Source: a virus
Virus record (IMG/VR): IMGVR_UViG_3300005518_000002
Coordinates: 17,860 to 81,859 of that record
Reading direction: 5' to 3' (one strand)
DNA length: 64,000 bases
The translations under genes and the position numbers were made by a program. This document shows, piece by piece, positions 45,289 through 62,143 of the stretch; the stretch's first letter is position 1, and the number at the start of each line of letters is the position of its first letter. The notes beneath the pieces were generated by a model, which searched no databases, was not told the origin of the DNA, and saw nothing but the letters and a program-made list of their open reading frames with translations.

Positions 45289-45540
45289 ATGACCACCACC
45301 AAGCGACCCAGGGGACGACCCCGTCCCATCGAGACGATCGAGCGGGACGAGAAGATCCTCAAGCTGCTCCAGCAGAGCGGATCGTTCACCCGCAATCAGA
45401 TCGCCGAAGCCCTGGGCCTGGACACCACCATCACCTACCTCTCCCTGGACCGGCTGCGCCGCCAGGGACGCGTCCGCAAGTGCGCGGGCACCGGCTCGAA
45501 CACCCTGTGGACGAGCGAGGCGAATGCCCCGTGCCCCTGA
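45289..45540 (+). CDS. AT-hook plus winged-helix DNA-binding protein
   Basis: An 83-aa protein. Residues 5-13 are an AT-hook-like KRPRGRPRP. Residues about 20-70 form a winged helix (DEKILKLLQQSGSFTRNQIA, TYLSLDRLRRQGRVRK). The AT-hook would suit the AT-rich intergenic motifs of this element. Likely transcription regulator. The GC-rich host background makes AT-rich sites stand out. Confidence 0.75.
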   Translation: MTTTKRPRGRPRPIETIERDEKILKLLQQSGSFTRNQIAEALGLDTTITYLSLDRLRRQGRVRKCAGTGSNTLWTSEANAPCP

Positions 45541-45746
45541 TCACCGGACCTGCGGACGAGCAGGAAGAGGCGCTGGGACCGCGGGAGATCTGCGAGCTGG
45601 GAGAGATCTGCGTAAAGATGGCCCGGCAGCTGCGAGAAACGAGCGAGGCAGCGGCAGCCATCTTCAGATCGCTCCCCGCCGCGGGAGCCCTGCTGACGTC
45701 CCCGGACGCCATGCGCTGGACCCCCGGGGAAGGAGTTGCGCTGTGA
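45531..45746 (+). CDS. Small helical protein
   Basis: A 71-aa protein from GTG 45531, overlapping the previous gene by 10 nt. The sequence CELGEICVKMARQLRETSEA gives an amphipathic helix. Unknown function. Coupled to the glycosyltransferase by GTGA. Confidence 0.5.
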   Translation: MPLITGPADEQEEALGPREICELGEICVKMARQLRETSEAAAAIFRSLPAAGALLTSPDAMRWTPGEGVAL

Positions 45747-46372
45747 GCGGTGACCGGCTCACCGTGGCTGTGTGCATCCCGACCATCGACGGCCGGGAGC
45801 GCATGCTGGCCAACGCCATGCGCACGGTAAGGATCCAGCGCCGCAAGCCCGACCAGATCCTGATCGAGCGGGACCGGGAAAGGACGGGCGCAGCAGCCAC
45901 ACGCAACCGGCTGCTGGCCCGGGTGGAGACCGACGTGATCGCCTGGCTCGACGATGATGACCTTCTGGAGCCGAACCACCTGATCGCCAACCTCCGGGTG
46001 CTCAAGGAGCGGCCGGAGGTCACACTCGTCTACCCCCGGCCGCGCATGGTCGGCGGGAAGGACCCCACGGCAGTGACTTACCAGGGACGGTTCCCGACCC
46101 CTCCCTGGGGCCTGCGCTGGTGCCCGGAGTTCGACAAGCACCTGAGGATGCGCGGCTCCTTCATCCCCATGACGCACCTCGTGCGCACGCAGGCGGTGCG
46201 CGACGCCGGAGGATTCCCGCCCGGTGAAGTCCTGCCGGACGGCCGGTACCGGGGTGAGGACGAGGCGTACCTGATCAGGCTTCTCGATCACGGCGCGGTG
46301 TTCGAGCACCTGGACGCGAAGACCTGGAAGTGGGTCGTGCACACCCGGCAAACCGCCGGACGGGGTGTATAA
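45743..46372 (+). CDS. Family 2-like glycosyltransferase
   Basis: A 209-aa protein from GTG 45743 (AAGGAG seven bases upstream). VAVCIPTIDGRERML is the nucleotide-binding start, GAAATRNRLLARV the helix before the metal site, and WLDDDDLLEPNH the DxD. The C-terminal YRGEDEAYLIRLL supplies the ED catalytic base region. Without a transmembrane helix, it acts in the cytoplasm. Acceptor could be modified DNA or a virion or host glycan. Confidence 0.8.
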   Translation: MSGDRLTVAVCIPTIDGRERMLANAMRTVRIQRRKPDQILIERDRERTGAAATRNRLLARVETDVIAWLDDDDLLEPNHLIANLRVLKERPEVTLVYPRPRMVGGKDPTAVTYQGRFPTPPWGLRWCPEFDKHLRMRGSFIPMTHLVRTQAVRDAGGFPPGEVLPDGRYRGEDEAYLIRLLDHGAVFEHLDAKTWKWVVHTRQTAGRGV

Positions 46373-46625: not shown

Positions 46626-47027
46626 ATGGGAAACAACGGACGGACGTACCGGGGTGTGCCGGTTCCGAGCCGTCTGCGCGAGATCGAAGAGAAGGGCGAC
46701 CAGGATCATGATTTTTCCTACATGGGGTGGAAAGATGGCGTAGATGCAGCTTGGGCGGCGGGCATCCGCAATGAACCCGACCCTGGGCAAGGAGAACCGA
46801 CCATGACAGACCTACTCGAAGACAGCACCGATCCGCCCGAGAAGCGGGACAGTGAGGTACCGGCCGGGGCGGAAGTCGAAGCACTGTGCGCGGTGTTCAA
46901 CGAGAACGGGACCAGGGCCCGGGAGATCGTCAGGAGCATGCCCCGGCGGGACCGGGCGATCTTCACCTTCTGGCTGCTGGAGCTCACCAACATCATCGAC
47001 GAGATCCAGCTGGGTGACCGCTTGTAG
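46626..47027 (+). CDS. Hypothetical protein, two-part
   Basis: A 133-aa protein in the GATCATG context. Residues 1-58 are mixed (RTYRGVPVPSRLREIEEKGD, MGWKDGVDAAWAAG). From an internal ATG at 46803 (GGAGAACCGACC upstream) a second helical part follows. Two separate genes, 46626-46802 without a stop and 46803-47027, are less likely because the frame is continuous, but the internal start may be used. Confidence 0.55.
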   Translation: MGNNGRTYRGVPVPSRLREIEEKGDQDHDFSYMGWKDGVDAAWAAGIRNEPDPGQGEPTMTDLLEDSTDPPEKRDSEVPAGAEVEALCAVFNENGTRAREIVRSMPRRDRAIFTFWLLELTNIIDEIQLGDRL

Positions 47028-47043
47028 GACAGGACACCCGGAC

Positions 47044-47086
47044 AAGACAGGACAGGACACCAGGACACGGTGTCCTGTCCTGTCTT
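47044..47086. terminator. Very long terminator-like hairpin
   Basis: An 18-bp perfect stem (AAGACAGGACAGGACACC with its complement), 7-nt loop, followed by TGTCTTGTC. Its arms consist of the GGACA repeat. Confidence 0.7.
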
Positions 47087-47310
47087 TGTCTTGTCTGCCC
47101 CCCTTGTCCAATGCGCCCCCGGGTGCGCCCGTACACCTGTCCGTGCGCCGTCCCGGGACAGGACATCCCGGCAGGACGCTCCTGGACAGGACACGGTGTG
47201 CCAGTCCACCTGGACAAATATGCCGCTGGACATGTCCAGTCAACGTCCTGGACAACCCCGGGTAATACAGCACTGGACAAGCGCGCTGGCTGCCCCGTAC
47301 ATTGACTGGA

Positions 47311-47324
47311 CCGATTAAAGAAAA
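47311..47324. promoter_or_regulatory. Motif copy CCGATTAAAGAAAA
   Basis: CGATT and AATCG make an inverted repeat. It lies 20 bp before the Spd-like gene, next to its ribosome site. Confidence 0.45.
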
Positions 47325-47344
47325 TCGACCAGGGAGGACAGGCC

Positions 47345-48445
47345 ATGCGAACCAGGACAGAGCGCAGGACACGGATGGTGTCCAGGACGGTGGGGGACAA
47401 GACACACCCCGTCTCCCAGGAGTACGAGGTCCAGGTCCCGGTTGTCCCGACAGACTGGGACGCCGTCGCGCTGTCCACTGTCCGGGCCGCGACCACCCTG
47501 TCCGTCCTGGGCGCCATGGCCTGGAGCACGGTGTCCATCGGGGACCTGCTGTCCATGGTGGCCCCGAGCTGGGTGGCGTACACCGTCGCCGGGGTCTTCG
47601 ACCTGGCCTGGATCGTCTGCATGATCCTTGAATGGCTGGGCCGCTACGACCCCGCCCGCGCACGCATTCCCCGCCGGGCTGGCTGGTCGGCCCTGGGCAT
47701 CAGCATGGTCCTCATCGCAGGTCACGGCTATGCATACGGCGTGCTCAACGGCCACGGACGGAGCTTCCTGGCTGTGGGCATCGGAGGTGCGCTGGTCTCC
47801 GCCATCGCGAAGAGCATGTGGTCGGTGGTCATGAACCACACGGCCGTGAAGCTCTCCGCGGAACACGAGGAATGGCTGGCGGCGGAGCGTGCAGAGACCG
47901 GCACGGAGCTGGCCCTGACGGCTGAGCGCCGCAGGCTCGCCCGGACACGGGACTCCATTGAAGCCGAGCGCCGCGCACTGGGGCAGGACACAACGCCGGA
48001 GCCGGACGTCCAGGACATCCGGCCGGAGCCGGACGGGACACTGTCCGCCTCCCTGGACACGGACAAGGAAAAGGCTGTCCGGGCACTCGCCAAGGCCATG
48101 GACATCCCCGTGGAGCTGTTCGGCCTGGACAGGACAGCCGGACAGGACACGGACAGCCGGACAGGACACGGACAGCCGGACAGGACACGGACAGCCGGAC
48201 AGGACGGCCGGACAGGACGGCCGGACAGGACACGGACAGTCGTCCCCCTGGACAGGACACGCAGTGTCTCGTCCTATGTCCTGTCCCTCCTGTCCGAAGC
48301 GCCGGACATGGACGGGACAGCGGTCAGGACAGCGGTCCGGCTCGAATTCCCGGGCGCTTCGGAAGACAGCATCGCCAAGGCGATCACCCGCACACGTCTG
48401 AAGATCAGGAACACCGAGAAGAGGGATGGAGAGAACCATGGCTGA
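47345..48445 (+). CDS. Spd-like multi-span membrane protein with repeat-rich tail
   Basis: A 366-aa protein. Residues about 40-165 contain four hydrophobic segments (VRAATTLSVLGAMAWSTV, VAYTVAGVFDLAWIVCMI, ALGISMVLIAGHGYAYG, FLAVGIGGALVSAIAK), as in DUF2637/SpdB-type spread proteins of Streptomyces plasmids. A coiled coil follows (EHEEWLAAERAETGTELAL), then a Gly/Arg/Asp low-complexity stretch made by 19-bp DNA repeats, then a helical end (SEAPDMDGTAVRTAV). It precedes a TraB-like translocase, as in conjugative elements. Confidence 0.6.
   Translation: MRTRTERRTRMVSRTVGDKTHPVSQEYEVQVPVVPTDWDAVALSTVRAATTLSVLGAMAWSTVSIGDLLSMVAPSWVAYTVAGVFDLAWIVCMILEWLGRYDPARARIPRRAGWSALGISMVLIAGHGYAYGVLNGHGRSFLAVGIGGALVSAIAKSMWSVVMNHTAVKLSAEHEEWLAAERAETGTELALTAERRRLARTRDSIEAERRALGQDTTPEPDVQDIRPEPDGTLSASLDTDKEKAVRALAKAMDIPVELFGLDRTAGQDTDSRTGHGQPDRTRTAGQDGRTGRPDRTRTVVPLDRTRSVSSYVLSLLSEAPDMDGTAVRTAVRLEFPGASEDSIAKAITRTRLKIRNTEKRDGENHG
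48145..48227. repeat. Three perfect 19-bp tandem repeats plus two 13-bp derivatives
   Basis: GGACACGGACAGCCGGACA occurs at 48145, 48164 and 48183. GGACGGCCGGACA follows at 48202 and 48215. The unit is not a multiple of three, so the same DNA is translated in all three frames in turn (AGQDTDS, RTGHGQPD, RTRTAGQD). Selection may act on DNA rather than on protein. Confidence 0.85.
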
Positions 48446-49043
48446 GCACAACGGCTGGCCGTCTGCGCCGGACTACCCGGCAGGCATGCAGCGTCCGGCG
48501 AACCGGACCACGCTGACCGCGGACGAAGCCACAGCACGGGGCACGGACGGATTCGGGCACCCTCTGGGACCCGACTCCACGTTCCCCAACGGCACCGGAG
48601 AGATCTTCCCCCCGGGCACCCGGGGCACGATGTCCTCGGGCAAGGGGGGAAAGCACAGCAACCTGCTGGATCTGATCAAGACCCTGGAGGACGGCGATCT
48701 GGGTGACCAGGTCGAGATGCACGCCTATGTCGAGGACGCACGCGCACTGTTCATGCGCATCGCAGTGATCATCGCACTGGCGTCCGGCGGGATGAAGGAA
48801 GACGCCAAGCGCAAGGCCCGGGAGTCCGCGGACGGCCGCATGACCCTCGGGGACAAGATCAAGCTGGCTGCCGCGCTGCGGAAGATCTCCCGCAAGTTCG
48901 GCGCGGCCGCCGACCACGCCGCTGACGCGGCCGCCGACATGGCAGCCTCCTGGCGGATCATGGAAAGCTGCCTGGACGATCTGGAGCAGGGAGCGGCAAA
49001 GCCGCAGGCCAAGCGCGGTTTCAACATCACTCGCGGTCGTTAG
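48438..49043 (+). CDS. Transfer-block protein, unknown
   Basis: A 201-aa protein from the ATG at 48438 (GGAGAG upstream). Polar N-terminus, central hydrophobic helix (LFMRIAVIIALASGGM), Ala-rich helical C-terminus (AAADHAADAAADMAASW) and a basic end. It sits between the Spd-like and the translocase genes. Similar proteins accompany FtsK-like genes in actinomycete mobile elements, but I cannot name it. Confidence 0.6.
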   Translation: MAEHNGWPSAPDYPAGMQRPANRTTLTADEATARGTDGFGHPLGPDSTFPNGTGEIFPPGTRGTMSSGKGGKHSNLLDLIKTLEDGDLGDQVEMHAYVEDARALFMRIAVIIALASGGMKEDAKRKARESADGRMTLGDKIKLAAALRKISRKFGAAADHAADAAADMAASWRIMESCLDDLEQGAAKPQAKRGFNITRGR

Positions 49044-49055: not shown

Positions 49056-51020
49056 ATGAGCATCAACTTCGGTGCACGATTCGGCTGGCTGATGGCTGAG
49101 AAAACGGCTCCCTTTTCGGCGCCGGTACTGCTCAGCCTGGCTGCTATGCCGCTTGCCGTTCTCGCCCACTGGGGCTGGGGGGACGATCCGGTCTGGATCG
49201 CTGTCCTGGCTGTGGTCTCCACGATCCTGACCGCCTCCACGTACTGGACCTGGGGCCGCCGCAGCCGGGAGAGCCAGCGGGTGGCCACGGTGTTCACCGC
49301 CCTGGTACTGGGCTGGATCACCTTCGCGGCCGCGTCCAGCCCCTTCAACTCCGGCATGGTCAGTGCCTGGCTGCTCGGAACCGTCGCTCTCGGCATCCTG
49401 TGGGGTATCCGGCACGCCGGTCTCAAGCCCTCCAGCGAGAACGACAAGCAGGTCAGCGAGCCCGACCCGCTGGGCGGTCGTGTGGGCGTGCTGAAGGGAG
49501 CCCGGACAAAGAAGATCAAGGGGGACGACGAAGCGGTGGAGGCACGGGTGCAGATGCCCCGGGGCGGAGCCACCGTGGCGGATGTCCAGGCAGCCCGGGA
49601 CACCATCGCTTCGGCCGTCAGCATGGGGACGGACCAGGTCACCGTCCGGCCGGTCAAGGGACGTGCGGACCAGGTTGACCTGGCCTTCACCCAGCCCGTG
49701 GACATGGACAAAGTCCTGGCCTGGACAGGTCCGTCCCACCCCGGGAAGTCCATCGCGGATGCCCCGATCCGTCTGGGCTACCGCATGAACGGCAGCGAGA
49801 TCGCCTGGTGGCTGGTCGGGTCGGGAGACCCCGCCAACCCCCGGGTGCTGTCCCACACGCTGTGCACCGGCATGACCGGCTCCGGGAAGACGGAGACGAT
49901 CTGCACGGCGATCATCGAGATGCGCTCCCGCACGGACATCGTGCCGATCGTGGGAGACCCCGCCAAGTTCGCGCAGAGCTTCGGGGACATCGCGGACTGC
50001 CTGGAGATCGCGGCCAAGACCCCGGCCGAGGTCAAAAAGCTGATCAAGAACCTGCCGGACGCCGTGGTCTACCGTGCCGGGCTGCTGGGCACCCTGACCA
50101 GGGCAAACGGCCAGGTCGGGTACAAGGAGTGGATCCCGGAGTGCTACACCCTGCACGGGATCCCGGCAGTGTTCATCGACATCGAGGAAGCGGCCGACGT
50201 CGCCGATCTGATCGCTGATGAGCTGGACGAAGCAGTGCGCAAGCTCCGCTCCATAGGCATCCACCTCTGCATCTCGATGCAGACCGCACCGCACGACAAC
50301 ATGGCGCGCAAGACCCGCGGGCAGTTCGGCCAGTCGCTGGCCCACGGGTGCCAGGAAGCCCAGGATGCCAAGTACTCCCTGAACTCGAACACTCTCGACG
50401 CAGGGGCGGACCCCACCAAGTGGGGCAACGAATCCCCCGGCTCGCTGTATGCGGAGCTGGTCGGCACGGACAAGCTGCACTGGTCCGTGGACGGCAAGGT
50501 GCTCGCCACGACGTACGAGCAGAAGCGCACGTCGATCAGGGACACGAAGCGGTACTGGGCACACCTGGACGCCGGGACGAAGCAGATCCTCGGCCGGGGG
50601 ATCATCCTCCAGGACGAGCAGTTCCTGGCCGCGCTGCCGAGCGTTCCGGCCGACAGGGAAGTACCCGAAGAGGATGTGAGGCGGGACCTACACGCGGTCC
50701 CGACCGACGAAGGAGTGGTGGATGTGACACAGGAACTTCAGCCTCCGGTAGGTCCCCGGGTGGCCTTCGGGTCGCCCGAGCGTGACCGGATGAGCACCGA
50801 GGATGCACGTGCGCTGATCGAGGGAAGGATCGACGATCTGGAAGCCGGGGGCCGCGATTCGGTGGGCTTCGGAGACCTCGAAGATCTCGCCGCAGTGACC
50901 GGCCGCCAGCGCACCTGGATCTACCAGGAGCTGACACGGCTGGTAAAGGAGGGACGCCTGGTGGAGGGAACGAAGCCCCCGTACGCCATCAAGAGGCGTT
51001 CCGAGACAGCTGTCAGCTGA
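49056..51020 (+). CDS. TraB/FtsK-SpoIIIE-like DNA translocase
   Basis: About 654 aa from the ATG at 49056 (GTG at 49047 possible). Residues about 20-125 hold four transmembrane segments. Walker A GMTGSGKTE lies near residue 272, Walker B IPAVFIDIEEAAD near 370. The last 70 residues form a winged helix (GFGDLEDLAAVTGRQRTWIY...LVKEGRLVEG). Streptomyces TraB has the same order: membrane anchor, motor, DNA-reading winged helix. It pumps double-stranded plasmid DNA between mycelial cells. A cluster of TGTCAG repeats at the gene end could be its target. Confidence 0.85.
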   Translation: MSINFGARFGWLMAEKTAPFSAPVLLSLAAMPLAVLAHWGWGDDPVWIAVLAVVSTILTASTYWTWGRRSRESQRVATVFTALVLGWITFAAASSPFNSGMVSAWLLGTVALGILWGIRHAGLKPSSENDKQVSEPDPLGGRVGVLKGARTKKIKGDDEAVEARVQMPRGGATVADVQAARDTIASAVSMGTDQVTVRPVKGRADQVDLAFTQPVDMDKVLAWTGPSHPGKSIADAPIRLGYRMNGSEIAWWLVGSGDPANPRVLSHTLCTGMTGSGKTETICTAIIEMRSRTDIVPIVGDPAKFAQSFGDIADCLEIAAKTPAEVKKLIKNLPDAVVYRAGLLGTLTRANGQVGYKEWIPECYTLHGIPAVFIDIEEAADVADLIADELDEAVRKLRSIGIHLCISMQTAPHDNMARKTRGQFGQSLAHGCQEAQDAKYSLNSNTLDAGADPTKWGNESPGSLYAELVGTDKLHWSVDGKVLATTYEQKRTSIRDTKRYWAHLDAGTKQILGRGIILQDEQFLAALPSVPADREVPEEDVRRDLHAVPTDEGVVDVTQELQPPVGPRVAFGSPERDRMSTEDARALIEGRIDDLEAGGRDSVGFGDLEDLAAVTGRQRTWIYQELTRLVKEGRLVEGTKPPYAIKRRSETAVS

Positions 51021-51122
51021 CAGTGTCAGACAGTGTCAGAAAGGCTGTCAGAAGCCGTGTCAAAGGCTCCTGACAGCCCCTCTGGCCTAAGACTCTCCCC
51101 GCCTGACACGATCACGTGTCAG
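51011..51122. repeat. Cluster of TGTCAG/CTGACA hexamers at the translocase 3' end
   Basis: TGTCAG starts at 51011, 51024, 51034, 51046 and 51117; CTGACA at 51017, 51070 and 51103; a near copy TGTCAA at 51058. Eight exact copies within 112 bp. The location directly behind a traB-like gene is where Streptomyces plasmids carry the clt locus with TraB recognition repeats. Confidence 0.85.
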
Positions 51123-51123
51123 G
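51102..51123. terminator. Perfect hairpin within the repeat cluster
   Basis: CCTGACACG-ATCA-CGTGTCAGG. A 9-bp stem containing two of the hexamers. It may end the translocase transcript or be a paired binding site. Confidence 0.5.
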
Positions 51124-51155: not shown

Positions 51156-51365
51156 ATGACTCGTATCCTTGCCCGCTGGACGGCGGAGATCGTCGTCTTT
51201 GTGGGTGCCCTCATAGAGATCTACTTGTTCGCCAGCCTGCTCCCCGGGGACAGTGTCGATCTCCCTGTCGGCGGCACCCTGGTGACCATGCTCCTGATCG
51301 GAGCAGTCACCGCCGCTGTCGCCATTCCGCTCTGGTCGCACGGCCGCAAGCGCGACCGTGCCTAG
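51156..51365 (+). CDS. Two-span membrane protein
   Basis: A 69-aa protein. Helices IVVFVGALIEIYLFASLL and LVTMLLIGAVTAAVAIPLW, ending in a basic tail. Start in the GATCATCATG context. It lies in the conjugation-like block, where small membrane proteins are usual. Confidence 0.6.
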   Translation: MTRILARWTAEIVVFVGALIEIYLFASLLPGDSVDLPVGGTLVTMLLIGAVTAAVAIPLWSHGRKRDRA

Positions 51366-51862: not shown

Positions 51863-52545
51863 GCAGAGACCCGATGCTGGTGATCGTCCCCACCCGGGGA
51901 CGGCCGGAGAACATCGTCCGGCTGGAGGCCGCACTCACCGAGACCGGCACGATCGAGGCCGACTTCCTGTACGTGGTCGATCATGACGATCCGGCGCTGG
52001 ACGACTATCTCTCGCTCGGCCTGCGCCGGATCACGGTCATGCAGCGCCGGGCGCGTCTCGGCCGGACCCTGAACCATGTCTCCCAGCTCTACCGGGAGGC
52101 GTACGACGTGATCGGTTTCATGGGGGACGACCACTGCCCGCGGACCCCGGAATGGGACAAGCGGATCATGGACTCACTTCTGGAGGGCGCACCGCGGGTC
52201 GTCTACGGCAATGACCTCCTCCAGGGGGCGAACCTGCCGACGGCCGTCTTCATGCACAGCAGGATCATCAAGGAGCTCGGCTACATGGTTCCGGCGACCA
52301 TGGTCCACCTGTACCTGGACAACTTCTGGAAGGAGCTGGGCGCCGGACTGGACGGCCTGGTCTACCGGCCGGACGTGGTCATCGAGCACATCCACCCGGC
52401 TGCGGGCAAGGCCCCGATGGACGACGGGTACCGTGAGGCGAACTCGTCGGAGCAGGACCGGGCGGACCGGGAAGCCTGGCTGGCGTACCAGCAGAACTCT
52501 CTGCCCTACGCGGTCAAGAGGATCCGGGAGGCGTACGACAAGTGA
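51859..52545 (+). CDS. GT-A type glycosyltransferase
   Basis: A 228-aa protein from GTG 51859, overlapping the previous stop. LVIVPTRGRPENIVRLEAAL is the nucleotide-sugar start, FMGDDHCPRTPEWD the metal-binding region, and GADLDGLVYRPDVVIEH-like C-terminus carries a late His. Cytoplasmic. First of two tandem transferases before an epimerase. Confidence 0.75.
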   Translation: MSRDPMLVIVPTRGRPENIVRLEAALTETGTIEADFLYVVDHDDPALDDYLSLGLRRITVMQRRARLGRTLNHVSQLYREAYDVIGFMGDDHCPRTPEWDKRIMDSLLEGAPRVVYGNDLLQGANLPTAVFMHSRIIKELGYMVPATMVHLYLDNFWKELGAGLDGLVYRPDVVIEHIHPAAGKAPMDDGYREANSSEQDRADREAWLAYQQNSLPYAVKRIREAYDK

Positions 52546-53138
52546 CCTTGAAATCAGGCGTAACAGCCGTCGTGTCTGCACACACTCCCCGTGTGCAGAC
52601 ACGCTTGCATTCCGCACTGGACAGTGTGCTGATGCAGACCCGTCCGGTGGACGCAATCAGCGTCTCCGTCGATCATCACCACGAAGGTGCCGCTGCCACG
52701 AAGAACCGGGCGCTGGCGGCCGTGGGCACCGAGTGGTCGGCCGTGCTGGATTCGGACGATCTCTGGTTCCCCGAGCACGTCGCACTCCTGCTCATGCATG
52801 CCGAGCAGACCGGAGCCGACATGGTCTACCCGTGGTTCGAGGTGGAGAACGGGTGGGATCCGTTCCCGATGTTCGAGGGCCAGCCGTTCGACCCGAACGC
52901 GCTCAACGAGCAGAACTACATCCCGACCACGGTGCTCGTCAGGACAGAGCTGTTCCGGAGCACCGGGGGCTTCCAGCCCCTGGGACCGGAGGAGAATCCC
53001 TGCGACGACTGGGGGGCCTGGCACGCGCTGCGGAACGCGGGAGCGAAGATCGAGCACCTGAACCGGCGGACCTGGAAATGGGTCTGGCACGATACGGACG
53101 GGGACCGCAACACCTCGGGGAGGGGGAACGCGTGGTGA
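52542..53138 (+). CDS. GT-A type glycosyltransferase
   Basis: A 198-aa protein coupled to the previous one by GTGA. GVTAVVSAHTPRVQTRLHSA, GAAATKNRALAAV, AVLDSDDLWFPEH (DxD) and NPCDDWGAWHALR match the transferase at 45743 in order and spacing, so the two are probably paralogues. It has no membrane helix. Confidence 0.75.
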   Translation: MTLKSGVTAVVSAHTPRVQTRLHSALDSVLMQTRPVDAISVSVDHHHEGAAATKNRALAAVGTEWSAVLDSDDLWFPEHVALLLMHAEQTGADMVYPWFEVENGWDPFPMFEGQPFDPNALNEQNYIPTTVLVRTELFRSTGGFQPLGPEENPCDDWGAWHALRNAGAKIEHLNRRTWKWVWHDTDGDRNTSGRGNAW

Positions 53139-53607: not shown

Positions 53608-54519
53608 ATGAAGGCACTCGTCACCGGCAACAAAGGGTTCCTCGGCCGTCACTTCGAGGCTGAACTCGTCCGGCGCGGCTACGACGTGACCGGCCTGGAC
53701 ATCAAGACCACGAAGAGCCAGGACTGCCGGAGGTTCTTCCAGAGCTCGGAATCTCTGAAGAAGGAGTTCGATCTGGTGGTTCACGCCGCTGCTGTGATCA
53801 AGGGGCGGGAGACGATCGACGGGGCTCCGCTGGCCACCGCGGTGAACCTCGGACTGGACGCGGACATGTTCCGCTGGGCTTCGCTGGCCCGTCCGGGACG
53901 GGTGCTCTACCTCTCCAGCTCCGCCGCGTACCCCGTGTGGGCACAGGACGGGGAGCCCTCCTCCCCCTCCACGCAGGGTGGTCTGGGAGAGTTCTCGGTA
54001 GACGTCACCCGGGACGGAGGAGTCTCCCGGCCGGACCAGGTCTACGGCTGGAGCAAGGTCGTCGGAGAGGTGCTGACGCACGAGCTGCGCCGGACCGGCG
54101 TACCGGTCAGCGTGGTCCGGCCGTTCAGCGGATACGGCGCGGACCAGGACGACACGTACCCCTTCCCGGCCTTCGTCCGCCGGGCACTGGAGCGCCAGGA
54201 CCCCTTCGAGGTCTGGTGCGGCTCGTGCGTCAGGGACTTCATCCATGTCAGCGATGTGGTGGCGGGTGCGCTGGCCGTGGCTGAGGACGGCACCGAGGAT
54301 CCGGTCAACCTGTGCACCGGACGCGGGACCAGCTTCGACGACCTGGCAGAAATGATCACCGATGCCGTCGGATACTCCCCGGAGATCCTGGAACGGGCCG
54401 ACAAGCCGACCGGCGTCCGGCACCGTGTCGGAAGCACGCTGCGCATGTCCAAGATCTATGAGCCGGTGGTCACGCTGGAAGCCGGGATCGCGCTGGCGCT
54501 GGAGAAGTCGGCGGACTGA
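53608..54519 (+). CDS. NAD-dependent nucleotide-sugar epimerase (SDR)
   Basis: A 303-aa protein in the TGATCATG context after GAGGAC. KALVTGNKGFLGRHF nucleotide loop, VLYLSSSAAYPVW and VYGWSKVVGEVL (Tyr/Lys) and RPFSGYG. Member of the extended SDR family (GDP-mannose or UDP-glucose type). Probably prepares the sugar for the two upstream transferases. Confidence 0.85.
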   Translation: MKALVTGNKGFLGRHFEAELVRRGYDVTGLDIKTTKSQDCRRFFQSSESLKKEFDLVVHAAAVIKGRETIDGAPLATAVNLGLDADMFRWASLARPGRVLYLSSSAAYPVWAQDGEPSSPSTQGGLGEFSVDVTRDGGVSRPDQVYGWSKVVGEVLTHELRRTGVPVSVVRPFSGYGADQDDTYPFPAFVRRALERQDPFEVWCGSCVRDFIHVSDVVAGALAVAEDGTEDPVNLCTGRGTSFDDLAEMITDAVGYSPEILERADKPTGVRHRVGSTLRMSKIYEPVVTLEAGIALALEKSAD

Positions 54520-54595: not shown

Positions 54596-55288
54596 ATGCG
54601 CACCGTCACCAGCACCCAGACCCTCCGCACCGTCATCGAGCGGGCCATCGCCAAGCAGCACCCGGTGACGATCTCGTACGTCACGGCCAGCGGCCGGAAT
54701 GTTGTCCGCACCGTGGAGCCCTACCGGATCAGCGTGTCGGCCGCTGGTGACGTCCTGGTCAAGACGATGGACCGCGAGTCGGGCGACTACCGCAGGTTCC
54801 GGCTCGACCGGATCACGCACTACACCGTGCACCGCACCTACTTCTCGATCAAGAACCCGACCCACCTGACGGAGGTCGTCCTGTCCGTCGACAGCGGCGT
54901 TCCGGCCACGGCAGCCGAAAAGATGACCATGATCCGCGAAGCGGTCCTGTTCACGATCAAGCACAGCAACGGCAACCCTGCCGACGTCGACATCGACGGA
55001 ACGGTCGGACTCCTTGCAGCGGAGACCGGGGAGATCACACCGAGCCGTATCTGGGAGGCAATCCGCATGAACAAGACCCCCGAGTACCGCACCAGCAACG
55101 GTGTGGCCATCCGCGCCGGTCTGCGGGTGCTCGACTACGACCGTAAGACCGGCAGCGTCGGCCACGCGCAGTTCACCCGCGGCGGCAGCTGTGACCCCGG
55201 TGGCGAGTACTTCAATGGCTGGTTCGAGGTCGTCCGGGACGACGGCAGCACGGCCCTGTTCAACGGTGAGCGCCTGCGGGCGCTCTGA
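54596..55288 (+). CDS. WYL-like or two-part hypothetical protein
   Basis: A 230-aa protein from the ATG at 54596. Residues 1-80 (LRTVIERAIAKQHPVTISYV, RTVEPYRISVSAAGDVLVKT, YRRFRLDRITHYTVH) closely follow the strand pattern of WYL domains, ligand-sensing modules in regulators. There is no N-terminal HTH. The C-terminal part (residues about 150-230) is unrelated and unknown. Confidence 0.55.
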   Translation: MRTVTSTQTLRTVIERAIAKQHPVTISYVTASGRNVVRTVEPYRISVSAAGDVLVKTMDRESGDYRRFRLDRITHYTVHRTYFSIKNPTHLTEVVLSVDSGVPATAAEKMTMIREAVLFTIKHSNGNPADVDIDGTVGLLAAETGEITPSRIWEAIRMNKTPEYRTSNGVAIRAGLRVLDYDRKTGSVGHAQFTRGGSCDPGGEYFNGWFEVVRDDGSTALFNGERLRAL

Positions 55289-55345
55289 CCCACCATCCCG
55301 GCCGGGAGGCAGACGCCTCCCGGCTCCGTCTATGAAAGGAAGATC

Positions 55346-55600
55346 ATGGCCAGGGACAAGTACCGGCACCGGACCGAGGACCGGGGGCGCGGCATCGTCG
55401 CCGTCTTCTCGGAGGGTCCGAGCAGCGAGGTGAACGCGGTCGACCGCGAAGGCCGGTCCTTCGCCAAGCGGGAGCTGACGTTCGAGCCGGGGCTGACCGG
55501 CAGGCCGGTTTCGGGCGGCGGCCGGTTCTACGACCATGGCGCCATGTACGAGGCGCAGCAGATCTTCGTCACGAAGAAGCTCACCCCGAGGGAGGACTGA
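55346..55600 (+). CDS. Small hypothetical protein
   Basis: An 84-aa protein, MARDKYRHRTEDRGRGIVAV..., after AAAGGAAGATC. Basic and Gly-rich, no hydrophobic segment. Unknown. Confidence 0.5.
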   Translation: MARDKYRHRTEDRGRGIVAVFSEGPSSEVNAVDREGRSFAKRELTFEPGLTGRPVSGGGRFYDHGAMYEAQQIFVTKKLTPRED

Positions 55601-55602
55601 TC

Positions 55603-55827
55603 ATGGCACGTAAAACCGACTACCCCACAGGCAATCCGAACGGCATGTCGTTCATCTGCAACAGGTGGGTGTTCACCGGTCCGCAGGGCTACCGCGTCCA
55701 GAAGCAGGGCGACAAGTGGAGCGTCGTCTCGTACACCGCGAACGACACGCGTCCGGTGTCCAGCGGTGCCCGGATGACCGAGGACGACGCGCACGCGCTG
55801 GCAGCCGAGCTGGCCGGAGGTCACTGA
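55603..55827 (+). CDS. Small hypothetical protein
   Basis: A 74-aa protein, MARKTDYPTGNPNGMSFICN..., in the TGATCATG context. Compact beta-rich core then a C-terminal helix (EDDAHALAAEL). Unknown. Confidence 0.5.
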   Translation: MARKTDYPTGNPNGMSFICNRWVFTGPQGYRVQKQGDKWSVVSYTANDTRPVSSGARMTEDDAHALAAELAGGH

Positions 55828-55829
55828 CC

Positions 55830-56306
55830 ATGCCGATTCGCGATGTCCTCCAGGCAGCCCTCCGTCGGCTCAGCTGGTCTCAGCACGAGATCGACACGGC
55901 GCTGACCGAGCTCCAGGAGGACGTACTGACGGACCCCACGCTGTCCGACCACACGGCCTACCGGGAACTGGCGGACGCAGTGGTGGAGCAGATCGGCTGG
56001 CTCTCCGGGGACGGGGACAGCTGGGACGGCGACGACGACGAACTGACCATCCTGAAGAACTGGCTCACGGTCTCCGGGAAGTGGCTGCCGGAGATGTACG
56101 CACACCTGACTGCGGAGAAGATCAGGTTCTGCTGCAACTGCCTCGCGGGAGCGGGCTCGTGCGATGCGGCGGCCGACCGGATCGACCCGTGGCTCTCCAG
56201 CACGGAGCACGAGAGCTGGGGAACTCTGGTCCGGAAGTCGGACGGCACCGAAGTGCCCTGGAAAATCATGAACGCCGTGGAAGTCCTGAGGAACAAGGAG
56301 AAGTGA
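55830..56306 (+). CDS. Acidic helical protein
   Basis: A 158-aa protein starting MPIRDVLQAALRRLSWSQHE with CGGAGG upstream. Acidic centre (DGDSWDGDDDE) and a CCNCLAGAGSC cluster. Unknown; acidity could suggest DNA mimicry. Confidence 0.55.
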   Translation: MPIRDVLQAALRRLSWSQHEIDTALTELQEDVLTDPTLSDHTAYRELADAVVEQIGWLSGDGDSWDGDDDELTILKNWLTVSGKWLPEMYAHLTAEKIRFCCNCLAGAGSCDAAADRIDPWLSSTEHESWGTLVRKSDGTEVPWKIMNAVEVLRNKEK

Positions 56307-56308
56307 CC

Positions 56309-56518
56309 ATGAAGAAGACGATCACCATCCGGCTCACGCTGGACAACATCGAGACCGCACTGAAGCCGGGCGACGTGTTCGCCGACGACCCCGAGTTCGG
56401 GGCTGTCCGGTCCGCCCGCAAGCACGCCAACGGCACGGACGCCATGGTGTACACCGACAAGGGCAGCCGGGACTCCCTCGGCCTGCCGCAGACCGTGCGC
56501 GTGATCCGGGAGACCTGA
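56309..56518 (+). CDS. Small hypothetical protein
   Basis: A 69-aa protein, MKKTITIRLTLDNIETALKP..., two bases after the previous stop, with AAGGAG. Alpha/beta composition. Unknown. Confidence 0.5.
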   Translation: MKKTITIRLTLDNIETALKPGDVFADDPEFGAVRSARKHANGTDAMVYTDKGSRDSLGLPQTVRVIRET

Positions 56519-56520
56519 TC

Positions 56521-56730
56521 ATGGAGAAGAAGCTGTACCTCGTGGGGGTTTCGCAGGGGGCTCCGGTGAGCGTCCTCGGCCCGTACCAGGAGAGCGAGCT
56601 CCGTCCGCTCATGACCGGCCGCAGGCAGCTGGAGGACGCGGGAGCCGACGAAGGCGTCTACCGGGCGCGGGCGCTCAGCGCCGAGGAAGCGCTGGCGCAG
56701 GTCGAGCGGGACCTGAGGGAAGGGAACTGA
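56521..56730 (+). CDS. Small hypothetical protein
   Basis: A 69-aa protein, MEKKLYLVGVSQGAPVSVLG..., in the TGATCATG context. Ends in an acidic helix (EEALAQVERDL). Unknown. Confidence 0.5.
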   Translation: MEKKLYLVGVSQGAPVSVLGPYQESELRPLMTGRRQLEDAGADEGVYRARALSAEEALAQVERDLREGN

Positions 56731-56732
56731 TC

Positions 56733-56945
56733 ATGGGACAGCGGGAACGGCTGGAAGCGCTGCGCAAGGACGCGAATGATCCGACACTTGAGGCCGGAGA
56801 CCTCGTGTTCTGCCGGGGCATCTACGCCAAGGTTCGGATGATCAGGGAACACAAGCCGGGTACACACTCGTGGTCACCGATCAAGAACGAAATGACGGCC
56901 CGGGAGATCGTGACAGACCTCGGCTCACGGTGGTTCGGACGCTGA
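56733..56945 (+). CDS. Small hypothetical protein
   Basis: A 70-aa protein, MGQRERLEALRKDANDPTLE..., with AAGGGAACTGATC before the ATG. A GDLVFCRGIYAKVRMI segment suggests a small beta barrel. Unknown. Confidence 0.5.
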   Translation: MGQRERLEALRKDANDPTLEAGDLVFCRGIYAKVRMIREHKPGTHSWSPIKNEMTAREIVTDLGSRWFGR

Positions 56946-57034
56946 GAGACCGGTCGGGTGCAGGGGCTGACGTCCCTGCACCCCCTCAGGCCGTCAGCCT
57001 GGAACAAGATCACAGACCAGCACGAGGAGAGATC

Positions 57035-57295
57035 ATGGAAAAGGGATACACCGTCGTCCAGGTCACGGACCTGGCCCCCGGGGACCGGATCGCGCAGGTG
57101 TTCCCCGTCAGGGAACGCGGCATCGTCCGCAAGGGGGAGCGGGTGGTGAAGATCCTGGACGTCCAGCCGGAGACGGTTGAGCGCTGGGGCGAGAAGCTTC
57201 CGGTCTGCCGCGTCCTCGGTATCGACCCTGATCAGGGGGACGGGGTCGTGAAGTGGCTGGCCGTGCCGTCCCGCCGGTACGTCGTCGTCCGCTGA
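57035..57295 (+). CDS. Small beta-rich protein
   Basis: An 86-aa protein, MEKGYTVVQVTDLAPGDRIA..., after GAGGAGAGATC. It is strand-rich and resembles small RNA- or DNA-binding barrels. The terminator follows 5 bp after the stop. Confidence 0.5.
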   Translation: MEKGYTVVQVTDLAPGDRIAQVFPVRERGIVRKGERVVKILDVQPETVERWGEKLPVCRVLGIDPDQGDGVVKWLAVPSRRYVVVR

Positions 57296-57299
57296 CTGA

Positions 57300-57317
57300 G
57301 GGGCCCTTCGGGGCCCC
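57300..57317 (+). terminator. Intrinsic terminator
   Basis: GGGGCCC-TTCG-GGGCCCC followed by TTCTTCCTT. A UUCG tetraloop closes the stem. It ends the upstream small-gene operon and isolates the following non-coding region. Confidence 0.85.
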
Positions 57318-57323
57318 TTCTTC

Positions 57324-57922
57324 CTTAAAAATCACGGTTTATTTTTAAAGCCCCAGGTCAGGGCGTTGATCGAAACTTTACAACGAGCCGGATTAGCTGT
57401 TTACTTAAAGCAGAACAACAAAACAGCACGACCGAGCCACCGGGGGTCCAATCCCCCCGGAGCCCGGGGAAGATCGGGAAGAGGACGCTACGGTCAGCCT
57501 CACCGGATCACCCCACAGGGGCAGCGGATCGGGAGTCGAGATCTTCTCCTCCCCCGCAGGATCGGAGCCCGGAACATAACCGGGCGGGTCACGCAGCAGA
57601 CCTCAAGCGCTCGTCGCAGCTGGAGACAGGCACCGGACCTCCGCAAAACCGGTAGACGAACCGAGTAGGAGATCGGGCGCGGCTGGCATGAGGGTCAGTC
57701 ACCGTACCTCCCAAAGGACGAGTCGGAAGCACCGGCCAGCAACGGCGTAAGGGCAGCGAGCTACAGACTGCATCTCACGGGGCCGCCGGTGACGCACTAC
57801 ACACGACCCTCCGCTCACAGTCGAAGTCCAGATATGACCCCGCACTGGAGTGACTGCCCGTTCGAGTCGGGCCCGGAGGGACCAACCGCACACCAACTGA
57901 AGATCACAACAAGGAGCACACC
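57324..57922 (+). ncRNA. Candidate large structured non-coding RNA
   Basis: About 590 nt with no convincing gene between a terminator and the next small gene. It starts with an AT-rich inverted repeat (57324-57350) that could hold a promoter. Hairpins: 57440-57460 (7 bp, loop TCCAAT), 57567-57585 (6 bp, loop AACATAA, like a CAU anticodon arm), 57632-57653 (5 bp), and a tRNA-like element at 57807-57881. Size and tRNA neighbourhood recall phage GOLLD and ROOL RNAs. No alignment was possible, so the identity is open. Several tandem degenerate tRNAs are the alternative. Confidence 0.45.
57807..57881 (+). tRNA. tRNA-like element lacking a normal D-arm
   Basis: A 75-nt unit. CCCTCCG pairs with CGGAGGG as acceptor stem. 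GCCCG-TTCGAGT-CGGGC is a canonical T-arm. Between them CAGTC/GACTG encloses TCCAG/CTGGA with a 13-nt loop, so there is no 7-nt anticodon loop or D-stem. It may be a decayed tRNA or a tRNA-mimic domain of the larger RNA. Confidence 0.4.
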
Positions 57923-58804: not shown

Positions 58805-58875
58805 GCCTCCATGGGGTAATGGATGCCCGCCGGGTTCTCAGCCCGGAGATGCCGGATCGTGACCGGCTGGAGGTA
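58805..58875 (+). tRNA. tRNA-Glu(CTC)
   Basis: A 71-nt cloverleaf: acceptor GCCTCCA/TGGAGGT (one G-T pair), D-arm GGGT-AATGGAT-GCCC, anticodon arm CCGGG-TTCTCAG-CCCGG with anticodon CTC, T-arm GCCGG-ATCGTGA-CCGGC. All stems pair. The T-loop lacks the usual TTCRA start, which is odd. No CCA is encoded. Confidence 0.8.
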
Positions 58876-58916
58876 CGCAGGAACGACCAACTGAACAGGA
58901 CCACAGGGAGATCGCT

Positions 58917-59201
58917 ATGAGCACTGCTGCCAGGCCGACCTGTCTGGAGCTCGCAGTCAACTGGGAGCGCGGCTGGAAGGTCTACGAAGTGACCGGCACC
59001 CGGCACGCGCATTTCCTGCTGAAGAAGCTCGCTGCTCGCGACGGCTTCCTGGGAGCCCGGCTGCGGGATCTGCTGTACGAAAGTGACGGCACGGTGACGA
59101 ACAACGTCCTGATGTTCTCCAGCCAGGACATCCTGTACGGCAGCGAGAAGTTCGGCGCGCTGCTGGACCGGGGCAACAGCAACTATGACCTGGAGCACTG
59201 A
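58917..59201 (+). CDS. Small hypothetical protein
   Basis: A 94-aa protein, MSTAARPTCLELAVNWERGW..., after AGGGAGATCGCT. Alpha/beta mix. Unknown. Confidence 0.55.
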   Translation: MSTAARPTCLELAVNWERGWKVYEVTGTRHAHFLLKKLAARDGFLGARLRDLLYESDGTVTNNVLMFSSQDILYGSEKFGALLDRGNSNYDLEH

Positions 59202-59207
59202 TCGACC

Positions 59208-59268
59208 CCTCTGTCCGGATGGAACGGGCCGCGACCGCCTCGGGCGGGGAAGCCGGTCCGGACGGAGG
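59208..59268 (+). ncRNA. 61-nt stem-loop element next to a tRNA-like gene
   Basis: A 12-bp stem (CCTCTGTCCGGA with TCCGGACGGAGG, one T-G pair) encloses a CCGCC/GGCGG hairpin. It ends four bases before the tRNA-like unit at 59273. It could be a tRNA leader or a degenerate tRNA. Confidence 0.45.
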
Positions 59269-59272
59269 CCAT

Positions 59273-59340
59273 GCCGGGGATATCCAGCGGGTGCTCGCGT
59301 GATCAGCACGCCCCCGGGGGTTCGAGTCCCCCGCCCGGTA
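59273..59340 (+). tRNA. tRNA-like gene, possible anticodon GTG (His)
   Basis: 68 nt. Acceptor GCCGGGG/GCCCGGT with one mismatch at the inner pair. T-arm GGGGG-TTCGAGT-CCCCC is canonical. The anticodon arm TGCTC-GCGTGAT-CAGCA has a C-C mismatch at its top and places GTG as anticodon, with C instead of T at position 33. The D-arm is shortened (ATCC-AGC-GGGT, sharing bases). Possibly a defective or divergent tRNA. Confidence 0.4.
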
Positions 59341-59370
59341 CGCAGGAACACAGACCAAGGAGGACCAGCC

Positions 59371-59544
59371 ATGGATGCAAAGGGATTCAAGATCACTAAG
59401 AAGGAGGTCCGGGGACGGGTCCTCGTGACCTGCTCCGAGCACGGGAAGCTCGCGGTTCACGGCGGAGACTTTCCGTGGACGGCCGCACAGGTCACGGAGT
59501 GGACCCACGCCCGCGACGTGCACCGCGTGCCCGTCACCTTGTAA
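59371..59544 (+). CDS. Small hypothetical protein
   Basis: A 57-aa protein, MDAKGFKITKKEVRGRVLVT..., with AAGGAGG before the ATG. Contains CSEHGK. Unknown. Confidence 0.55.
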   Translation: MDAKGFKITKKEVRGRVLVTCSEHGKLAVHGGDFPWTAAQVTEWTHARDVHRVPVTL

Positions 59545-59546
59545 CT

Positions 59547-59900
59547 GTGGACGGCACATGTCCGGCGGGGCGGCACGCCTACCCCGCGACACGCATGGCC
59601 ACGATGAGCGAAGGCAAGCTCCGGTTCTACTGCGGCGGTTGCCGAAGGGACCGGGACGGAGCCCGGAGGGAGCGGGACTACCAGCCGTACGAGCCGGACA
59701 TGGAAGCCGTGAAGCGCGCGGTGTACGGCGATCCCCCCGAGTACCTGCATCCCGCGGAGCGCCGCCTGGCAGCGGAGGAGATCTACGCCGTCCCGCTGCC
59801 GCGCCGCCTCAGTCTCTCCGTATCGGCGCAGCATCTGCGCTGCACTCCCCGGCACGTCAGCTGGCTGTTCAAGAAGATCAAGGAAGCGAAAGAGGGGTAA
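59547..59900 (+). CDS. Zinc-ribbon-like protein with C-terminal helical domain
   Basis: About 117 aa from GTG 59547, two bases after the previous stop. This start keeps CPAGRH, which with CGGCRR makes a plausible zinc ribbon. The ATG of MATMSEGKL is an alternative. A basic helical end (RCTPRHVSWLFKKIKEAKEG) may be DNA-binding. Confidence 0.5.
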   Translation: MDGTCPAGRHAYPATRMATMSEGKLRFYCGGCRRDRDGARRERDYQPYEPDMEAVKRAVYGDPPEYLHPAERRLAAEEIYAVPLPRRLSLSVSAQHLRCTPRHVSWLFKKIKEAKEG

Positions 59901-60154
59901 TGGTCACTAAGAATCAGGCGCTGAGCGTCAACGACTTCCACTACGGCACCTGTACCCGCGAGACGGGACCCCGTGGCGGCGTGAAGGAGCGCATCGAGCG
60001 CTGGCGTCGCAACGGGTCCACCCAGACCTGGAAGACCCGTCCGCGGGAGTTCCGCCTTCCGGTCAAGTACGGCATGCGCGGCTACAGCGTGATCACTCAG
60101 GACAACGCGTCCGACTTCCACACCGAAGCGGACTGTCCGCTGAATGGAGGCTGA
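59900..60154 (+). CDS. Small basic protein
   Basis: An 84-aa protein, MVTKNQALSVNDFHYGTCTR..., whose ATG shares a base with the previous stop. Arg-rich centre (VKERIERWRRNGS). Unknown, possibly nucleic-acid binding. Confidence 0.55.
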   Translation: MVTKNQALSVNDFHYGTCTRETGPRGGVKERIERWRRNGSTQTWKTRPREFRLPVKYGMRGYSVITQDNASDFHTEADCPLNGG

Positions 60155-60156
60155 TC

Positions 60157-60402
60157 ATGGGTGCCACGTACAGCACGGTCCGCATCAGCCCGGTCCGGGT
60201 GGGCAACGGTCTCTGGAACCGCTGGGACTTCACCCGGGACGGTGCCACTGTCGGTGAGATCACCGAAACGGAGCGAGGCTACGTGGGCAAGCTGTTCGGT
60301 CCCCACGGACCGAACGGCAGGCCCGCGTTCACCGGCTGCGAGCTGCCGTTCCGGCAGTCGGTATTCGACCAGCTGACCAAGCAGGACGAGAAGAGGAGCT
60401 AG
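60157..60402 (+). CDS. Small hypothetical protein
   Basis: An 81-aa protein, MGATYSTVRISPVRVGNGLW..., in the TGATCATG context. Beta-rich. Unknown. Confidence 0.5.
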   Translation: MGATYSTVRISPVRVGNGLWNRWDFTRDGATVGEITETERGYVGKLFGPHGPNGRPAFTGCELPFRQSVFDQLTKQDEKRS

Positions 60403-60404
60403 CT

Positions 60405-60707
60405 ATGGCAATGGGGCAGGACCAGCGGGAAAAGGCACTGGACAGTCTGCGCGGCTGTTCACCTTTCAGGAGCGCGAACAGTGCCCTGTCGGCCGCGTAC
60501 GGGTGCCAGGGCACAGGAAAGCTGGACCACGAATACAAGGCCGATGCCGAGTCGGCCGGTTACGTGGTCTACAGCTACGAGACGCCTATCGCCTGGATCC
60601 GGCAGGACGGCACGCGGGTCATGCCGTCCGCCCGCTACAGCCAGGTAACGGCTCAGCACAAGGGCATCGTCCGTCAGGCATGGGCGGGGCGTGTGCGCGA
60701 GATCTGA
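60405..60707 (+). CDS. Conserved actinophage small protein (DUF8033-like pattern)
   Basis: A 100-aa protein. SANSALSAAYGCQGTGKLDH, AESAGYVVYSYETPIAW and a YSQVTAQHKG end follow a pattern I recall from many small phage and plasmid proteins (YSxxT..H with SYxTPIA). Biochemical role unknown. Confidence 0.6.
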   Translation: MAMGQDQREKALDSLRGCSPFRSANSALSAAYGCQGTGKLDHEYKADAESAGYVVYSYETPIAWIRQDGTRVMPSARYSQVTAQHKGIVRQAWAGRVREI

Positions 60708-60787
60708 TCTCCGCCCGGCTGCACAGCCTCCGGTCTGTGCAGCCTGCGAGGCTGATCAGCCTTGACCACCGAGTGCCAGGAGACCAC

Positions 60788-60913
60788 ATGAACAAGATCG
60801 TCCGGCTTCTCTCCACTCTGTTCGGCAGCTGCCCCTCGGGTGGCGATCACCTTCCGGGCACGTCCGGTGAATGGGTCGGCCGCTGTACCAAGTGCGGCAA
60901 CCCCACCAGCTGA
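60788..60913 (+). CDS. 41-aa zinc-knuckle peptide
   Basis: MNKIVRLLSTLFGSCPSGGD... ending RCTKCGNPTS. One Cys plus a CxxC pair. AGGAGACCAC before the ATG. Unknown. Confidence 0.5.
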   Translation: MNKIVRLLSTLFGSCPSGGDHLPGTSGEWVGRCTKCGNPTS

Positions 60914-61009
60914 TGGCAGGGACCAAGCGCCCCGGAGGGCTTCAGCCCAAAGGGCCCTGGGACAACAGGCCGCAGCCTCCGAGCCCCGGCCGTATGCAGT
61001 GACGACACC

Positions 61010-61037
61010 GCCGCCCGGAGCCTGAGCTCCGGGCGGC
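61010..61037 (+). promoter_or_regulatory. 12-bp hairpin abutting a ribosome-binding site
   Basis: GCCGCCCGGAGC-CTGA-GCTCCGGGCGGC ends one base before CGGGAGGG, the ribosome site of the gene at 61050. The gap 60914-61049 has no other gene. It may control translation of the next gene or end the upstream transcript. Confidence 0.55.
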
Positions 61038-61049
61038 CGGGAGGGAAAC

Positions 61050-61373
61050 ATGCCAAAGATCGTTCTTCTTCAGCCGTCGGAGTACACCGACCACATCACC
61101 GCCGACGGTACGCAGCTGACCAAGCTGCCGTATCCGGTCGGTGTGCACATGGACGGCTCCGTCACCAATCAGGAGTTCTGGCAGGGCGACCCGTATCGGG
61201 TCATCGGCTTCCAGCGTGACCTTGCCCGGCACGAGATCGACGTGTGGTGGGCCGAGGTCTCCCGTGATCCGCAGAAGGCCGTCGGTCTGTACCTGGTCAC
61301 CGGGGACAGCAAGGGCGGCATGGGCGTGCACCAGACGGCCATCTCCAGCGTTGAGGTTCTGGGATCCGAATGA
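61050..61373 (+). CDS. Hypothetical protein
   Basis: A 107-aa protein, MPKIVLLQPSEYTDHITADG..., with GGGAGGG upstream. Ordered alpha/beta pattern (PYRVIGFQRDLARHEIDVWW). Unknown. Confidence 0.55.
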   Translation: MPKIVLLQPSEYTDHITADGTQLTKLPYPVGVHMDGSVTNQEFWQGDPYRVIGFQRDLARHEIDVWWAEVSRDPQKAVGLYLVTGDSKGGMGVHQTAISSVEVLGSE

Positions 61374-61462
61374 AGAGGATCCAGATCACGAAGACCAGGC
61401 GGCCGACCGGTCCGCCGGACATCGACACCCGGACGCCGTCCGGCCGACCCCTGCCGTACTGA
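61370..61462 (+). CDS. Possible 30-aa basic peptide
   Basis: MKRIQITKTRRPTGPPDIDT..., ATGA overlap with the previous stop. Short and Pro/Arg-rich. Supported only by coupling. Confidence 0.35.
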   Translation: MKRIQITKTRRPTGPPDIDTRTPSGRPLPY

Positions 61463-61472
61463 GGGAGGGGCC

Positions 61473-61712: not shown

Positions 61713-61714
61713 CC

Positions 61715-61924: not shown

Positions 61925-61932
61925 GGATGATC

Positions 61933-62112: not shown

Positions 62113-62124
62113 TCAAGCACGACA

Positions 62125-62140
62125 CCCGGCTTGCGCCGGG
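62125..62140 (+). other. Small hairpin before the second tRNA-Glu
   Basis: CCCGGC-TTGC-GCCGGG, three bases before the tRNA. Mirrors the 12-bp hairpin before the first tRNA-Glu. Confidence 0.6.
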
Positions 62141-62143
62141 CCA

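Follow-up and report, generated by a model that had tools for sequence, protein, structure and literature searches.

The window analysed here, a 64,000-nucleotide part of an 81.9-kb virus record, carries a group of genes on the plus strand around a traB gene (49056–51020). The traB product (654 aa) is predicted to be a membrane-anchored DNA translocase of the FtsK/SpoIIIE type, based on a profile match, tblastn, AF2 modelling and Foldseek. We took the ATG at 49056 as its start, with a GTG at 49047 as an alternative. Directly upstream is a traA-like gene (48426–49043, plus strand), recognised from a match to the NF041213 plasmid_TraA profile (E=4.6e-7, 30 bits, under the curated cut-off of 80) and from homologues at the same place in the clade. 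The gene before it (47345–48445, plus strand) encodes a membrane protein that is Spd/DUF2637-like in position and layout and matches phrog_35187 (E=8.5e-54), a function-unannotated family. Its product has N-terminal hydrophobic helices, a repeat-encoded linker and an HTH-like C-terminal end, as judged by eye within this clade. Assignment to DUF2637 itself was dropped, as the protein had no Pfam match to DUF2637 and no BLAST homology to the DUF2637 protein of pWTY27. Behind traB lies a putative clt of eight TGTCAG/CTGACA hexamers in both orientations (51011–51122), and a gene for a small membrane protein of 69 aa (51156–51365, plus strand) starts 33 bp past the repeats; this gene is a reading of the sequence, with the gene call beginning at 51201 in the same frame.

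The TraB product matched the NCBIfam plasmid_TraB profile (NF041214) over its full length (residues 14–645, E=1.7e-109, 367 bits). The naming (equivalog) cut-off of this profile is 800 bits, and both the window protein and the TraB of pRL1 (708 bits) fall under it. Homologues were found by tblastn in 50 actinobacterial plasmids, including pJV1, pSN22, pWTY27 and pFP4, with 26–29% identity over ~95% of TraB for many Streptomyces plasmids (pRL1, pCQ3, pJV1, pSN22, pFP4 and others). The AF2 model (pLDDT 85.9) has an N-terminal membrane anchor of four long hydrophobic helices, predicted to be transmembrane (residues 5–123), and Foldseek returned the FtsK motor structures 6t8g and 6t8o as the top matches (E=1.1e-14 for 6t8g). 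A C-terminal winged helix (50784–51017, plus strand), the putative repeat reader, was modelled separately with a pLDDT of 87.7 as three helices plus a strand; its structural neighbours are mostly winged-helix domains, and its recognition helix reads GRQRTWIYQEL. The order of membrane anchor, motor and winged helix that the original prediction had read from the letters is thus present in the predicted structure. That prediction had also named loss of Walker function as grounds for refutation, and the Walker motifs GMTGSGKTE and VFIDIEEAAD are intact, with G272, G275, K278, E377 and E378 invariant across 41 TraB homologues. The profile match and the models support the gene as encoding a full-length Streptomyces-type TraB, and TraB of this family has been the transfer protein in every tested case (PMC3583192, PMC4170104).

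The cluster of exact hexamers starts inside the last 10 bp of traB, with TGTCAG on the plus strand at 51011, 51024, 51034, 51046 and 51117 and on the minus strand at 51017, 51070 and 51103. The predicted count of eight in 112 bp was exact, and a ninth, near copy (GTGTCAA) lies at ~51056. When the window was dinucleotide-shuffled block by block (30 shuffles), no hexamer reached more than 5 copies in 120 bp, and the maximum in 500 shuffles of the cluster region was 4. Over the whole window, the hexamer shows no excess (28 found vs 36 expected). An apparent avoidance of TGTCAG outside the cluster, seen against dinucleotide shuffles, vanished against a higher-order expectation (z=+1.1) and was discarded.

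By-eye alignment of homologous sites pointed to CTCTGGCCTAAGAC (51080–51093, plus strand), a core containing CCT-N-AG in the gap between two repeat blocks. The two-block layout about such a core recurs among homologous sites, and pWTY27 and the held-out plasmids described below have CCCCTAGG, CCCTCAGG or CCCCAGG at the equivalent position of the gap. CCTHAG is denser in the 3' regions (1.67/kb) than elsewhere (0.46/kb). A universal core, CTCTGACCTTAG, held only partly (mean mismatches 3.50 vs 4.06 shuffled), and we retained it as a weak CCT-N-AG feature.

A search for the same cluster beside related translocases, which the original prediction had proposed as a check, found repeat clusters at the same site behind traB in most of 67 relatives, including two experimentally established clts, those of pWTY27 and pJV1. 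CTGACA/GTGTCA clusters lie at the traB 3' end in pRL1, pCQ3, plasmids of S. canus, Amycolatopsis and Nonomuraea, and many virus contigs. The density of TGACA/TGTCA in the 200 bp at the traB stop was 20.5/kb vs 0.8/kb elsewhere (66 loci, Wilcoxon p=6e-8). Other relatives have divergent words at the same place, for example GTGTCACGG (L027), CTGATCAG (L028/L029), TGTGAG (L030/L031), GGAACAG (L035/L036), GTGGCA (L056/L058) and CCGCACACC (L060). The place or the phase of the cluster is conserved in pWTY27 (place), pJV1 (place and phase) and more than 30 homologues. Spacings of 10–13 bp accounted for 112 of 263 neighbouring pairs (39.7 +/- 5.6 at random), and copies in the same orientation had a period of 11.9 bp with a power of 0.36, against a random maximum of 0.13. 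Such systematic conservation of the cluster in place and phase while its words diverge appears to be new, as far as the open-access literature shows. Two distant TraBs of ~25% identity, L099 (an S. virginiae plasmid, 54687–57716) and L069, also have clt-like clusters behind the gene, with new words (GCGCACC and GTTGCACC).

Eight plasmids, including pSN22, were retrieved only once the rule had been formed, and all eight carry 5–8 copies of one hexamer behind traB. In six of them no other segment of the retrieved sequence had as many, and in the other two the cluster was equalled or exceeded by one segment elsewhere. Under a strict exact-hexamer test, the site ranked within the highest 5% of its own sequence at 27 of 66 loci, and roughly one locus in four had no cluster; at many of the others a second array dilutes the signal, or the repeats are degenerate but recognisable by eye. 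Weak or no hexamer clusters were found behind traB in the close relatives L018, L019, L024, L030 and L031, and neither the hexamer test nor inspection by eye revealed a cluster behind traB in pFP4 (maximum 3 copies), L024 or L065. The rule itself, a short repeat of any sequence phased at 10–13 bp in the first 150–200 bp after traB, can be used for finding clts.

To relate the repeats to their possible reader, we compared repeat similarity with winged-helix identity while holding motor identity constant. Repeat similarity tracked winged-helix identity (partial Mantel p=0.002–0.008), and the same test gave no signal on three control regions. When the comparison was slid along TraB, segments other than the winged helix followed the motif as well or better, so the covariation fails to single out the winged helix, and we dropped it as proof of the reader. 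The middle residue of an RxR in the recognition helix is His with TGTGA repeats (L030, L031, L032) and Ser or Gln with TGTCAG (the window and L017); in these few and related sequences, it is a possible specificity switch. With dozens of winged helices and repeats now paired, TraB specificity becomes directly testable, for example RHR/TGTGA vs RSR/RQR/TGTCAG.

The closest experimental counterpart is pWTY27 of Streptomyces sp. Y27, whose clt consists of the last 16 bp of an FtsK-type gene and the next 159 bp, with TGACACC repeats; the plasmid's TraB-type protein footprints this site, and transfer fell ~1000-fold when the 159 bp were deleted (PMC3583192). The translocase (named traA there) is 26% identical over 89% of the query, DUF2637 and TraA genes lie upstream, the repeats share a TGACA core, and the clt likewise starts shortly before the gene ends (by 16 bp, against 10 bp in the window) and continues downstream. 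The two differ in that pWTY27 is a small theta plasmid with one capsid-like gene and otherwise without a phage structural operon. Its repeat is TGACACC rather than GTGTCAG/CTGACA, and binding to it has been demonstrated, whereas the window cluster is a putative binding site. In pJV1, CCGCACA repeats follow traB at spacings of 12, 12, 11 and 13 bp, and this clt is experimentally established according to work cited in PMC3583192. Both pJV1 and pSN22 resemble the window in having the cluster directly behind traB with 11–13 bp phasing, and differ in the CCGCACA repeat, in being small circular Streptomyces plasmids without phage genes, and in a TraB of 26% identity. For pSVH1, an 8-bp motif is read by helix alpha-3 of TraB, again as cited in PMC3583192. 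Clts are described as varied, and none is reported for the archetype pSAM2 (PMC3583192, PMC9513070). Streptomyces plasmid-phages with transfer genes, pZL12 and pFP4, are already known from work cited in PMC4170104 and PMC3583192. These are likewise Streptomyces elements with phage and transfer genes, and pFP4 has a TraB of 28% identity and a DUF2637 gene but no hexamer cluster was found behind its traB; pZL12 did not turn up among the TraB matches.

The TGTCAG cluster is not the strongest array nearby, because denser clusters of GGACA-family hexamers (47019–48337) sit 0.7–2 kb upstream of traB. By word counts, the second array (47019–48445) comprises 46 GGACA and 17 TGTCC, that is, 63 copies at 44/kb vs ~4/kb elsewhere. 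It is larger than the TGTCAG cluster and had been overlooked in the original prediction. The array occupies the 326 bp of non-coding DNA before the Spd-like gene and all three frames within this gene, which points to a signal in the DNA and not to repetition in the protein. Dense arrays also lie upstream at nearly all TraB loci, in a gene of comparable kind. Within the phage clade almost every member uses GGACA, with clear exceptions in L022 (CGAAAG) and L026 (CGCAAG), and plasmids use other words. The simplest candidate for the GGACA reader, the HTH-like C-terminus of the Spd-like protein, is weakened by L022, where this C-terminus closely resembles those of GGACA carriers yet the array differs. 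As a finding, the GGACA array appears new within the open-access literature. Slippage-like tandem arrays are also present in this region (48127–48205).

The window also has structural and packaging genes of a tailed phage. Genes on the minus strand encode a major capsid protein (7660–9468; 60% identical to the annotated major capsid protein of pS1D4-14.2), a portal protein (12679–14484; a weak PF04860 match, 63% to the pS1D4-14.2 portal), a terminase large subunit (17451–18839; PF03237/PF17289, 71% to pS1D4-14.2), a ParB-like protein (26775–27545; phrog_723 ParB-like partition protein, E=4e-42, no PF02195 match) and a primase/helicase-polymerase fusion for replication (30104–34402; DNA_pol_A, D5_N, DUF3854 and DUF5906, 47% to the P4-family primase of pS1D4-14.2). 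The reference element, pS1D4-14.2 (NZ_CP041606.1), is a complete 98.8-kb plasmid of Streptomyces sp. S1D4-14 with portal, capsid and tape-measure genes. Its conserved core genes are collinear with those of the window, its TraB is 48% identical, and it too has a TraA-like gene upstream of traB and a repeat cluster behind. It differs in that its repeats have diverged to CGTCAG/TGTCGG, its second array is CGAAAG rather than GGACA, and it has annotated ParA, ParB and tyrosine integrase genes. In the window's virus record, which is possibly partial, ParA (PF13614), ParB_N (PF02195) and a tyrosine integrase were not found. As the record has the ParB-like gene and neither ParA nor a tyrosine integrase was found, we infer plasmid maintenance of the virus from its relatives.

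Portal and TraB occur together in at least 14 other virus records (portal 54–66% identical), or 15 with the window's own. Eight further records with a related portal had no TraB, which proves little because most are fragments. For the genome scan, an alignment of all TraBs was too diverse, and a clade alignment used instead found three genomes; the isolate genomes that came closest are those of Streptomyces africanus and Streptomyces sp. NRRL S-455, with the matches on contigs of 93–96 kb. The 12-kb region had no near-identical counterpart in the phage and plasmid collections searched, and tblastn of TraB gave no match among isolated phages, a set from which near relatives may be missing. Collinearity with pS1D4-14.2 and the relatives in Streptomyces genomes favour the phage-plasmid reading originally proposed.

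Taken together, the locus is very probably the conjugative transfer module of an actinobacterial phage-plasmid, consisting of the Spd-like membrane protein, the TraA-like protein, TraB and the putative clt behind traB. This reading is based on the identity of the genes, the intact catalytic motifs, repeats that are phased and conserved in position, and relatives that are phage-plasmids; from these we infer repeat binding, transfer and plasmid maintenance. The clt and phage-plasmid interpretation of the original prediction is well supported, given that the position and phase of the repeats are conserved behind traB, the core genes are collinear with pS1D4-14.2, and portal and TraB are kept together in relatives. 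By analogy with pWTY27 and pSVH1, TraB most likely uses its winged helix to load on the phased repeats. The N-terminal helices would anchor the protein in the membrane, and the winged helix would grip the TGTCAG copies. Copies about one helical turn apart (10–13 bp), in two blocks flanking a short core, would be well placed for a TraB ring to load on double-stranded DNA. Once assembled, the ring's motor would pump the replicated genome via a septum or hyphal contact into the neighbouring compartment, without lysis. For TraB plasmids the transfer step is well established, and it would extend by analogy to the window virus. With a complete TraB motor and a phased repeat cluster behind it, this virus of a soil bacterium can probably spread between touching bacterial filaments like a plasmid, besides making virus particles.

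The repeats might instead be bound by a dimeric repressor and not by TraB, acting as an operator, attenuator or structured 3' leader for the transfer operon or for the small membrane gene that follows. The two orientations do give palindromes (51010–51023 and 51103–51122) and strong predicted hairpins, the RNA fold has z=-5.98 at the cluster (homologous regions mean z=-3.35 vs -0.59 for controls), and the next gene begins just 33 bp past the last copy. However, hairpin propensity is predicted because the copies are inverted and so arises for free, a search inside the cluster found no terminator-like site, and the downstream genes vary between elements. Eight to ten helically phased copies over 110–170 bp also exceed what a repressor site needs, and the equivalent arrangement in pWTY27 has been proven to bind the TraB-type protein and to be needed for transfer (PMC3583192). 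An RNA or operator role of the cluster is thus possible but less likely, and we consider this explanation in place of TraB binding quite improbable. An origin of the cluster by chance, or by slippage as low-complexity sequence, is hardly credible: tandem arrays resembling slippage do occur nearby, but the shuffle statistics, the phasing and the held-out plasmids speak against it, as does conservation of position and motif across TraBs of ~27% identity.

The other alternative concerns the use to which the module is put. FtsK-like proteins are able to segregate DNA, and TraB is conserved together with the portal through much of the phage family, so that TraB and the repeats could serve the phage itself, in genome segregation, prophage partition into spores or DNA delivery to heads, rather than cell-to-cell transfer. 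The virus, however, has its own terminase and portal, and no support was found for the related suggestion in the original prediction of a captured module for loading DNA into heads. TraB is moreover accompanied by a TraA-like gene in a plasmid-type layout, and wherever tested the TraB of this family is a transfer protein (PMC3583192, PMC4170104). We regard use by the phage alone as highly improbable.

TraB/clt systems and transfer-competent Streptomyces plasmid-phages are already known (PMC3583192, PMC4170104). What appears new, within the open-access literature, is that TraB is one of the regular genes in a tailed-phage family of mycelial bacteria, which makes a plasmid-style conjugation module a regular component of that family. 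With portal and TraB together in at least 14 related records, such viruses may spread as particles and also through contact between hyphae. A more speculative extension, which we hold to be rather unlikely, is that the transfer module has two DNA sites, the phased clt and the GGACA array, with the latter, which lies ahead of a membrane-HTH gene and inside its coding linker, being a membrane-tethering or spreading site that doubles as coding DNA for a partner protein, and with conjugation-type spread a core trait of the phage family beside virion production.

Several other features of the window were recorded. A modification-type gene set (23399–24292, 51874–52545, 45524–46372, 52542–53138 and 53608–54519) comprises a TET/JBP-type oxygenase (PF12851, E=5e-17), a weak match to a TET-associated glycosyltransferase, two more glycosyltransferases and a nucleotide-sugar epimerase, and probably represents a DNA base hypermodification pathway. 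A DEAD/DEAH-type helicase gene (35321–37978) has an inserted Hint/homing-endonuclease (intein) segment (PF05203, PF14528), and four tRNA genes (Glu-CTC, Ala-AGC, Glu-TTC and Leu-TAA) lie amid many small ORFs at 58805–63343. A near-perfect 60-bp tandem repeat (3308–3439; 2.2 copies, 98%) is located in a minus-strand gene of the structural region.
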